DNA of 64,000 nt from Phycisphaerae bacterium (GTDB lineage: Bacteria > Planctomycetota > Phycisphaerae > UBA1845 > Fen-1342). Below are positions 17,997 to 23,265 of the stretch, in pieces; position 1 is the stretch's first letter, and every line of letters starts with the position of its first letter. Location of the stretch: the NCBI GenBank assembly GCA_022072445.1, contig JAJVHV010000034.1, forward strand, positions 1 to 64,000, written 5' to 3'. The position numbers and the translations under genes are program-made. Under the pieces are notes generated by a model, which saw nothing but the letters and a program-made list of their open reading frames with translations, ran no database searches and was not told the DNA's origin.

Positions 17997-18809
17997 TCAC
18001 CGCAGCGCCCGAATCCTGCCGATCAGCTCGGCCGGGTCGGGGCGGTTCTGCACCCGCGTCGCGATGAATCGCCAGACTATTCGCCCGTCGCGATCGATCA
18101 GGAAGTGCGACGGAATGGCGATGTCGCCTCCGTTGGGCGCGCCGCCGGCGTGCAGCACGCCAAATGCGCGGATGACGTGCCGCTCGGTGTCGCTGAGAAT
18201 CGGGAACGGCAGGTCGTGGCGTTGCACGACCTGTGCGGCGCGGTGCGGCGGGTCGGCGGAGACCGCCAGCAGCCTCCCGCCGCGCGACTTCAGCTCCTCA
18301 CTGACGGCTCCGAGACCTCGGAGTTCGGCCTGGCAAACCGGTCACCAGAAGCCACGGTAAAAGACGAGCAGGACGGGGCCGCCGCGACGTGCGTCCTTGA
18401 GCGAGACGATTCGACCCGATTCATCGGGCAGCTCGAATTCCGGCGCGACCTGCAGCGCCGTCGCGGTCTCGGCCGGTAGCGGCAGCGCCCAGACCCAGAA
18501 GAAGCTGAACGTGAAAATGCCCAGCAGTGCAAGATTGCCCAGCGCGAGCAGCCGCGGGAACAACCGCCGATCGCGCCGCACCGCGAGGACGCCTGCGATG
18601 GCGGCCGCGCCCATGATCACAAACGCCGGCAACCCGGTCGAACGCAGCAGCGGCACGCCGAGCAGCGCGACATACACGAATCCGCCGGCCAGCGAGAGCA
18701 ACAGGCAGGCGGCGGCGCGGAGCGGGAAGCCGCGCGGGGCGGCTGCACCGGGCGTGGGTTCGTATCGAGGACGCACGTTTTCGGCTCCGAAGTCGACGGC
18801 ACCTGACAC
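17997..18809 (-). CDS. Membrane-anchored peroxiredoxin-like protein with in-frame TGA at the redox Cys (probable selenoprotein)
   Basis: Read through one TGA, the frame gives 270 residues: about three hydrophobic helices (residues 25-110), then an AhpC/TSA-type redoxin domain. The TGA (18342-18344, codon 156) falls in FYRGFW-U-PVCQAELRG, where relatives have the first Cys of a CPxC redox motif. After the TGA the frame runs 114 more codons of good domain sequence, including VSADPPHRAAQ, FPILSDTERHVIRAFG and SHFLIDRDGRIVWRF. A hairpin 18 bases after the TGA fits a bacterial SECIS element. The natural reading is selenocysteine insertion, giving a U-x-x-C thiol peroxidase or reductase facing the periplasm. 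A nonsense mutation is the alternative. The GTG start is provisional. Confidence 0.75.
18308..18323 (-). promoter_or_regulatory. Candidate bacterial SECIS hairpin
   Basis: On the minus-strand mRNA, CUCCGA (18323-18318) pairs perfectly with UCGGAG (18313-18308) around a GGUC loop. The loop begins 25 bases after the UGA. Bacterial SECIS elements lie inside the coding region with a small apical loop containing G (often GU) about 16-37 bases after the UGA, and the E. coli fdhF loop also holds GGUC. The match is by eye, without a folding calculation. Confidence 0.65.
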
Positions 18810-20397: not shown

Positions 20398-20466
20398 ACA
20401 AGCCTCCGCACGCGTGTCGCCGGGGCGGACTTTCGCCGACGGTCGCTGCGCGGGATAGTGCACGTC

Positions 20467-23265
20467 ATGAACATCCGCCGCGCGCTGCTCAGCGTCTGGG
20501 ACAAAACCGGCATCGTCGACTTCGCCCGCGCGCTGCACCACGAGTTCGGCGTGGAGATCATCTCGACGGGCGGGACGGCCACGGCGCTGCGCGAGGCTGG
20601 CATTCCGGTAACCCTGGTCGAGGAGATCACCGGCTGCGGCGAGATGCTCGGCGGGCGGGTCAAAACGCTGCACCCGAAGATTCACGCGGCGATCCTGGCC
20701 GATCGCGACAACCCCGAGCACATGCGGCAGCTCGCCGAGGCGGGGATCGAACCGATCGACATGGTGGTGGTCAATCTCTACCCGTTTGAGAAGACGGTTG
20801 CCGATTCGAACTGCACGTTCGAGCAGGCGATCGAGATGATCGACATCGGGGGCGTCGCCCTGCTCCGCGCGGCGGCGAAGAACAGCCCACGGGTGCTTGT
20901 CATTTCAGCGTCTACGTACTACAGGCGTACGCTTGAGTACCTAAGGGGCCGGGCTCCCGGCCTGGGACACAATTGGCCGGAGTTCTTGAGGACGAAGGCG
21001 TTTCAGCAGACCTCAGCCTACGACATTGCCATTCAAACCTACTTCGGCCGGCGCTATTGGGACTCGCCATTCCTGCCGGCGTTGATGCTGGACCTATCCC
21101 TCGATACGCCGACTACCGGCAATGAGCTGCGTTACGGCGAGAATCCGCACCAGCGAGCCAGTATCTACGCGATCGCTCGATCGAAGCTCGGGCTCGGCGG
21201 GGTGGTCGGCAACCTGTCCTACAACAACTACCTCGACGCCGACGCGGCGCTGGGCCTGTGCGCCGAACTGACGCGGGCGGATAAGGTGTGGCACAGGCTA
21301 TCAGCCTGTGCGCAAATTTTCGCGAAGGGCACTCCGAAGGTCCAGCACGGACCAACAGCGCGTGCCACACTGCCGGCGTCGGCTCGTCGGCCGGAGTTCA
21401 TCGATGATGAGCGGGCGACGCGACGGACCTTGCCGCATCTTCAGCGTCCCGGGGCGAGCTACTTCGTGACAGCGCGCGTCGAGACCGGACACCTTACGGA
21501 GGCCGAGCGCGACATCGTGATGGGCTGCTGCCTCTATCCGAACGCGCGAACCGCAGCCATTCACGCGGTAGTCGTCATGAAGGATCACGTGCATCTCTTG
21601 CTGACGCCACTGGAAGCGGAACCGGGCGAATTTCACGCCTTGAGCCGGATCATGCAGGGGATCAAGGGCGTTTCGGCGCGCGAAGTCAACAAGAAACGAG
21701 GCCAATCGGGCAAGCTCTGGCAAGACGAATCGTTCGACCACATTCTGAGGGATGTGGCCGAAATGCGGGAGACGTTGGAATACATCTACTGGAATCCAGT
21801 CACGGCCGGCTTGGCGTCAGAGGGGGAATACGCATGGTGCGCGCTCGAAACAGCGCTTGAATGGGACCCGCCATCTCGCGCGGTCGGCGTGGCCGAGCAC
21901 CCGCTGTACTGGATCGGTGGCTCGCCGGACGCGCCGCGCGTTTGGCGCGCCGAATTGGAATCGGTGCAACGGCCGACGCACAGGCTAATAGCCTGTGCCA
22001 CACCAAAAGCCTCTGCCACACCAAAAGCCTCTGCCACACCAAGAGCCTCTGCCACACCAGACGTGCGAGCAGGCGCGGCCGGGGACGCGCGAACCGGTGC
22101 GTCGCGGACCGCTTGCGTCTGTTTCATCAAACATACCAACCCCTGCGGCGTCGGCGTGGCACAGCCGGCGAGCGACGCGGGCGGCGACGTTCACGCGGCG
22201 CGGCTCGACGCCTATCGCCGGGCATACCTGGGCGATCCGAACGCGGCGATGGGCGGCGTGCTGGCGGTGAACTTCGAGGTGGATGCGAGCTTTGCGGTCG
22301 CGGTGATGGAAACATTCGACCGGATCGGCAAGCCGCTGCGCGAGGCCGGCGCCGCGAACGCGCCGGGCGGGTTTTTTGTGGAGGTCTGGATCGCACCGGG
22401 TTTCACCGACGACGCCGTCGCGATCATCCGCGGAACCTACGATTCCGCGGCCGCGACGCCCGCGCACGCCGGCGGCGGGGAGAGCGCGGCCCCACCCGAA
22501 GCGCGAATTGACGCACCGCCCAGAAAAAAGTGGGGCGAGAGTGTGCGGCTGCTCTCAGTTGGGGACATGAGCGTGCCGCCCGACGCCGACGAGCTGCATT
22601 ACCGCACGATCGCCGGCGGGATGCTCGTCCAGACGCCCGACCTGCTCGGTCTGAACGAGCAGGAGTGGAAGGTCGTCACGCGGCGTTCCCTGTCCGAGGC
22701 GGAAATGGCCGATCTGCGGCTGGCGTGGCTGATCTGCAAGCACACGAGAAGCAACGCGATCACGCTGGTGCGCGACGGGATGCTGATCGGAAACGGCGCC
22801 GGGCAGATGAGTCGCGTGATGAGCTGCCGCGTCGCGGCGTGGCTGGCGCGCGAAAACGGGCACCTCGGGGAGCGGAGCGCGGGGAACGCGGCGCGAGACC
22901 TGGGGGACCGATCTCCGATTGGACTTCAGGAGCTTGTGGAGAGAGGTATTCGCAAGAACACGATTGATTCCTCGACAAAAGACCGGTCCGAGACCGGTCC
23001 CCAAGTTGTTGACCCGGCACAGACGGGTCTCCCAGATACCGACCCGGCAGCGACCGGTACACCATTTGGCGAACGTCGCGTGTCCATCGTTGCGGCGAGC
23101 GACGCTTTCTTTCCCTTTTCCGACGGCCCACAGATCCTGATCGACAGCGGCGTCACCGCCATCATTCAGCCCGGCGGCAGCAAACGCGATCAGGAGACGA
23201 TCGACCTGTGCGACGCGCGCGGGGTGGCTATGATCTTCACGGGCACGCGACACTTTCGGCACTAA
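20467..23265 (+). CDS. purH: PurH (IMP cyclohydrolase / AICAR transformylase) with in-frame transposase insertion
   Basis: PurH catalyses the last two steps of IMP synthesis. N-terminal IMPCH features are ALLSVWDKTGI, ISTGGTATALREAG and GGRVKTLHPKIHAAIL. The transformylase domain shows LRYGENPHQ, LSYNNYLDADAAL, the KHTNPCG motif (Lys555-His556), SNAITLV, GNGAGQMSRV and the end DAFFPFSDGPQILIDSGVTAIIQPGGSKRD. The 932-residue length far exceeds the usual 520 or so. About 270 codons between CAELTRAD and RTACVCFIKH are a REP-flanked RAYT transposase read in the same frame. A second foreign-looking segment lies near 22864-23081. All host landmarks remain, so function may persist. The ATG at 20467 (not the GTG at 20458) fits the family start. 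Confidence 0.82.
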   Translation: MNIRRALLSVWDKTGIVDFARALHHEFGVEIISTGGTATALREAGIPVTLVEEITGCGEMLGGRVKTLHPKIHAAILADRDNPEHMRQLAEAGIEPIDMVVVNLYPFEKTVADSNCTFEQAIEMIDIGGVALLRAAAKNSPRVLVISASTYYRRTLEYLRGRAPGLGHNWPEFLRTKAFQQTSAYDIAIQTYFGRRYWDSPFLPALMLDLSLDTPTTGNELRYGENPHQRASIYAIARSKLGLGGVVGNLSYNNYLDADAALGLCAELTRADKVWHRLSACAQIFAKGTPKVQHGPTARATLPASARRPEFIDDERATRRTLPHLQRPGASYFVTARVETGHLTEAERDIVMGCCLYPNARTAAIHAVVVMKDHVHLLLTPLEAEPGEFHALSRIMQGIKGVSAREVNKKRGQSGKLWQDESFDHILRDVAEMRETLEYIYWNPVTAGLASEGEYAWCALETALEWDPPSRAVGVAEHPLYWIGGSPDAPRVWRAELESVQRPTHRLIACATPKASATPKASATPRASATPDVRAGAAGDARTGASRTACVCFIKHTNPCGVGVAQPASDAGGDVHAARLDAYRRAYLGDPNAAMGGVLAVNFEVDASFAVAVMETFDRIGKPLREAGAANAPGGFFVEVWIAPGFTDDAVAIIRGTYDSAAATPAHAGGGESAAPPEARIDAPPRKKWGESVRLLSVGDMSVPPDADELHYRTIAGGMLVQTPDLLGLNEQEWKVVTRRSLSEAEMADLRLAWLICKHTRSNAITLVRDGMLIGNGAGQMSRVMSCRVAAWLARENGHLGERSAGNAARDLGDRSPIGLQELVERGIRKNTIDSSTKDRSETGPQVVDPAQTGLPDTDPAATGTPFGERRVSIVAASDAFFPFSDGPQILIDSGVTAIIQPGGSKRDQETIDLCDARGVAMIFTGTRHFRH
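21286..22061 (+). mobile_element. REP-RAYT unit inserted in frame within purH
   Basis: The unit is bounded by two REP hairpins in inverted orientation: 21286-21311 and 21978-22003. Each is GTGTG plus GCACAGGCT, three bases, AGCCTGTGC, or its reverse complement. Between them lies a Y1-type RAYT transposase domain: SYFVTARVETGHLTEAE, the HUH motif in KDHVHLLLTP (His374 and His376 of the fused protein), GKLWQDESFDHIL and LEYIYWNPVTAGL with the candidate nucleophile Tyr. RAYTs mobilise REP sequences. The domain has no obvious start codon of its own in a good context and reads in the purH frame. Just right of the second REP are tandem 18-base copies of its end. Confidence 0.85.
21990..22061 (+). 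repeat. Four tandem 18-base repeats derived from the REP end
   Basis: The unit AGCCTCTGCCACACCAAA occurs about four times, the first copy being the right arm of the REP (AGCCTGTGCCACACC). Because 18 is a multiple of three, the array keeps the purH frame and encodes repeated KASATP hexapeptides. Confidence 0.8.
22864..23081 (+). repeat. Second in-frame foreign segment in purH
   Basis: Between RVAAWLAREN and VSIVAASDAFFPF about 70 codons have no counterpart in ordinary PurH. The segment is AT-richer than its surroundings and holds related GACCGGTC-type motifs, for example at 22981-23000, and two similar units beginning GACCCGGCA at 23020 and 23042. This suggests another repeat-derived insertion kept in frame. 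Confidence 0.45.

Follow-up and report, generated by a model that had tools for sequence, protein, structure and literature searches.

The window, by which we mean the whole 64,000-nucleotide stretch analysed here, carries on its minus strand a frame that is open along its entire length except for a single internal TGA (Table 1). This codon falls within the motif FYRGFW-U-PVC, where U marks the TGA; the motif is flanked on one side by three transmembrane helices and on the other by an intact AhpC/TSA fold. In an alignment of 27 relatives, F150, R152, G153, W155, U156, P157 and C159 are all invariant columns. The initial annotation had placed one TGA at the first Cys of a CPxC-type motif and had counted 114 codons of intact redoxin domain beyond it, and both statements are borne out by the uninterrupted downstream frame and by the Pfam match. 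The apparently broken gene is very probably intact, with its internal stop read as selenocysteine (Sec).

Table 1. Positions of the selenoprotein gene and its parts in the window.
Feature	Positions	Strand	Details and basis
Selenoprotein gene	17997..18809	-	270 residues with TGA as Sec; GTG start 18809, alternative GTG 18776; terminal TGA 17999-17997
In-frame TGA, Sec156 (of 270), first position of the U-P-V-C motif	18342..18344	-	Sequence
UxxC redox motif, Sec156 to Cys159	18333..18344	-	Sequence and invariant alignment columns
AhpC/TSA redoxin domain, residues 120-246	18072..18452	-	PF00578, 112 bits (Pfam)
Pro233, at the peroxiredoxin catalytic-Arg position	18111..18113	-	Alignment
SECIS-like hairpin CUCCGA-GGUC-UCGGAG	18308..18323	-	18 nt past the TGA; apical loop starts 25 nt past the TGA; six perfect pairs
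Transmembrane helix 1, residues 30-49	18663..18722	-	AlphaFold2 model; hydropathy
Transmembrane helix 2, residues 60-79	18573..18632	-	AlphaFold2 model; hydropathy
Transmembrane helix 3, residues 83-106	18492..18563	-	AlphaFold2 model; hydropathy

A single base change suffices to turn TGC into TGA, and UGA is by default a stop, so the codon could in principle have arisen from TGC by nonsense mutation, or be a sequencing error. Against this, full-length orthologues that are only 38-51% identical occur in 34 of 150 relatives, and each of these diverged genes contains exactly one stop, a TGA, with Cys in none of the 34. In all 19 orthologues that were read out, the TGA occupies the same codon as Sec156, and more tethered homologues with TGA at the motif were found in a phylum-wide sample of 392 genomes. 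The initial annotation had proposed aligning homologues at this codon, and had reasoned that close relatives with Cys, together with other inactivating changes in this copy, would speak against recoding; the nearest homologues instead have TGA, and the reading frame is undamaged before and after it.

The same annotation had named selA, selB, selD and selC (tRNA-Sec) as genes to look for, with the absence of selB and selC as an argument against a selenoprotein. All four are present in the source genome (G000, 97% complete), which encodes a tRNA-Sec with anticodon TCA, a SelB of 693 residues that scores above the curated cut-off, a SelA at 548 bits for both matching pieces together, and a selD (L170, G000:C37:1133-2059) that has its own in-frame TGA at the active site, SCAG-U-AGKLP. 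What is expected of a bacterial selenoprotein is accordingly found both in the gene, where UGA stands at a redox Cys position whose homologues carry UGA or Cys, and in its host, which encodes SelA, SelB, tRNA-Sec and SelD. Among the orthologue-bearing relatives, selA was found in 32 of 34; with the source genome counted, it is present in 33 of 35 gene carriers versus 75 of 115 non-carriers (Fisher p 0.0005, a value that ignores shared ancestry). The two TGA-gene genomes without a selA match are incomplete, fragmented MAGs (75% and 81%). As a side observation, the SelA model matches the selA of the source genome (G000:C2:212248-213711) as two segments, 1-264 and 267-453, that share a single open frame; about 110 bases separate the segments here and in several members of the same family, which points to a family-specific SelA insertion.

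Homologues with Cys at the motif offer a further line of evidence. Two of them, L028 (genome G302) and L038 (genome G141), have TGC and are nested in a supported Sec clade of the redoxin tree; both genomes are without selA, and both genes are without the hairpin. On the sequence evidence these two are Sec-to-Cys reversions. Genome G110, a sister of G141 in the same genus, has TGA, hairpin and selA together, so that this one genus presents a natural experiment: UGA, hairpin and selA on one side, and TGC with neither hairpin nor selA on the other. Because a third Cys homologue, L037, sits in a genome that does have selA (G052), Cys forms are not limited to selA-less genomes. The TGA shared among orthologues, the complete Sec machinery and the reversions in selA-less genomes indicate a real selenoprotein gene, and leave the probability of a pseudogene or sequencing error next to nil. 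UGA readthrough does occur in bacteria, and suppression or reassignment of the codon to some other residue (e.g. Trp or Cys, by near-cognate readthrough) would require no selenium; however, the gene's own terminal stop is TGA, the genome encodes selABCD and tRNA-Sec, Cys is the sole alternative seen at this position in the homologues read here, and the hairpin is lost in the Cys forms, all of which makes this reading very improbable. Given the orthologues and the Sec machinery, we reject both the pseudogene and the reassigned code.

The hairpin itself requires more careful treatment. A SECIS-like structure with a GGUC loop, as initially proposed, is present with its six pairs 18 nt past the TGA, but taken in one sequence it lies within chance. 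Its fold energy is average in the window sequence alone (z = +0.3), and about 30% of synonymous recodings of the window sequence contain a stem at least as long in any suitable place (p about 0.3); the exact six-pair stem at its exact place has p about 0.02. Because the single-sequence fold test is not significant, we do not use the hairpin as stand-alone evidence, and rely on its conservation in relatives. In a set of 12 divergent ELxGLG-type sequences, one of them the window's own, stem pairs are kept beyond the synonymous-codon null, with a combined p of 3e-7 that assumes independence. In an alignment of 23 sequences, 94% of cells pair, versus 33-61% when one side is slid; the stem shows one double-sided change, G-C to A-U, and its innermost pair is lost in 7 of the 23. 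ELVGL-type relatives do not form a stem of the window type, and, as judged by eye, may form an alternative GGAGC...GCTCC stem. An Rfam scan of the window at the gathering threshold matched none of the curated RNA families. The bacterial SECIS feature that we used, taken from PMC1088965, is a hairpin closely following the UGA with a G in a small apical loop, and the window has such a hairpin.

The three N-terminal transmembrane helices that had been claimed for this protein appear both in hydropathy and in the AlphaFold2 model (mean pLDDT 86), in which three predicted helices are followed by a confident redoxin fold, all within the same reading frame; no Pfam family covers the transmembrane part. 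The loop between helices 2 and 3 is basic (RRDRR) and predicted to be cytoplasmic. Summed over 52 sequences, K/R number 290 in the N-terminus plus loop 2-3, versus 121 in loop 1-2 plus the segment following helix 3, and in 46 of the 52 the charge favours an arrangement with the N-terminus in and the redoxin domain out. This charge bias suggests that the N-terminus is probably inside and that the redoxin domain probably faces the periplasm.

The closest folds are those of AhpE and PrxQ/BCP (PDB 4x0x, 1xxu, 3hjp, 2cx3; Z about 21-23, rmsd 1.6-2.0, about 150 residues). This likeness, the PF00578 match at 112 bits, and the fact that selenols generally react fast with peroxides would all favour a membrane-tethered peroxidase, in which, as in Sec peroxiredoxins, Sec156 or Cys159 would itself reduce H2O2 or organic hydroperoxides. 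However, while the canonical peroxiredoxin fold is there, the catalytic residues are not. Peroxiredoxins have a PxxxT/SxxC motif in which the roles of Thr, and of a separate Arg, have been described (PMC5022050). In alignments to AhpE and PrxQ, the catalytic Pro is replaced by Arg152, the active-site Thr/Ser by Sec156 and the catalytic Arg by Pro233, while Cys159 aligns with the peroxidatic Cys. In the 27 relatives, Arg152, Sec156 and Cys159 never vary, and Pro233 hardly does. Moreover, the motif of known Sec peroxiredoxins is TxxU rather than UxxC (PMC1088965, PMC13188914). With Sec at the place of Thr, Cys159 at the peroxidatic place, and the catalytic Pro and Arg replaced, a UxxC thiol-disulfide oxidoreductase is more likely than a peroxidase, which we regard as rather unlikely. 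Of the selenium-based thiol peroxidase or reductase initially suggested, it is the peroxidase half that is weakened by these replacements.

Taken together, the comparative evidence makes it nearly certain that the gene encodes a real selenoprotein, and likely that the product is a membrane-anchored and probably periplasm-facing UxxC thiol-disulfide oxidoreductase. UGA codon 156 would be decoded as Sec by the endogenous SelB and tRNA-Sec, helped by the downstream hairpin, and the three helices would anchor the product in the cytoplasmic membrane, probably N-inside, with the redoxin domain toward the periplasm. Sec156 and Cys159 would then form a thiol-disulfide redox pair, in which the selenol may attack a disulfide or oxidised substrate and Cys159 may resolve the intermediate through a selenenylsulfide. 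The gene neighbourhood does not reveal the substrate or the reductant: in 20 relatives, the only neighbour families common to most come from fragments of this very gene or from frames that overlap it, and no operon partner emerged.

None of the curated NCBIfam models claims the protein. Its best curated relative is SelL/SelL-related (NF040769), aligned over residues 121-221 at 69 bits versus a cut-off of 120, which places it outside that family; SelL has a UxxU motif, whereas the window protein has one Sec, in UxxC. ResA/TlpA proteins share a WCxxC-type motif, a Pro before the FLID strand, a membrane tether and a periplasmic domain (periplasmic by predicted topology in our case), but the match to NF002854 (ResA) is 56 bits versus a cut-off of 170, and the window protein differs in having three helices instead of one and in carrying Sec where they have the first Cys. 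A closer likeness is to the UxxC Prx-like selenoproteins, known since 2005. The Sargasso Sea selenoproteome (PMC1088965) includes Prx-like selenoproteins with a thioredoxin-like UXXC, and PMC13188914 a class named "Prx-like thiol:disulfide oxidoreductase", PF00578 with UxxC/UxxU. The window protein likewise matches PF00578 with UxxC replacing TxxC/TxxU, and resembles these selenoproteins (PMC1088965, PMC2398784, PMC13188914) also in its in-frame bacterial hairpin with a G in a small apical loop. It differs from them in its three N-terminal transmembrane helices and probable extracytoplasmic redoxin domain; the passages of these three papers that were searched mention no membrane form. Judged from its sequence, the window gene is a membrane-tethered variant of this known family.

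Membrane fusion had been thought unusual for the group, which it is not. A motif scan of GTDB genomes for Sec redoxins returned at least 119 loci, and in about 20 of the 119 listed the redoxin domain is preceded by several predicted N-terminal helices; membrane fusion is likewise seen in the orthologues that were read out from the source lineage's order. These tethered loci come from at least six phyla: Planctomycetota, Verrucomicrobiota, Acidobacteriota, Rokuibacteriota, Myxococcota and Pseudomonadota. One tethered Sec redoxin (L140), from a record labelled Betaproteobacteria, groups with Acidobacteriota and Verrucomicrobiota in the redoxin tree, and may represent either a mislabelled bin or a transfer. 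A single origin of the tether is unsupported, as the redoxin tree needs 8 label changes and its starred branches force at least 3.

To judge from a search of openly readable main texts, which turned up no such description, the tethered Sec form has apparently not been treated as a group before. Because standard gene callers stop at UGA, many genomes probably list members of this family as truncated or split genes. We regard it as an evenly balanced question whether the loci in those six phyla represent a widespread and so far unrecognised class of selenol redox enzymes, tethered to the membrane and facing the periplasm, that engage in extracytoplasmic disulfide or peroxide chemistry and were missed through such splitting. 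To selenoprotein specialists the family would be plausible, not shocking; what is new is the membrane placement and the wide, patchy spread, which add a tethered branch to the UxxC Prx-like selenoproteins.

Elsewhere in the window, a 935-residue frame on the plus strand (20458-23265) reads as PurH (MGS, AICARFT/IMPCHase) that is split, without loss of frame, by an IS200-like Y1 transposase domain (residues 365-442) together with a short repeat tract. Within this tract, ARAGORN calls a tRNA-Asn on the minus strand (21940-22024) that is probably false.
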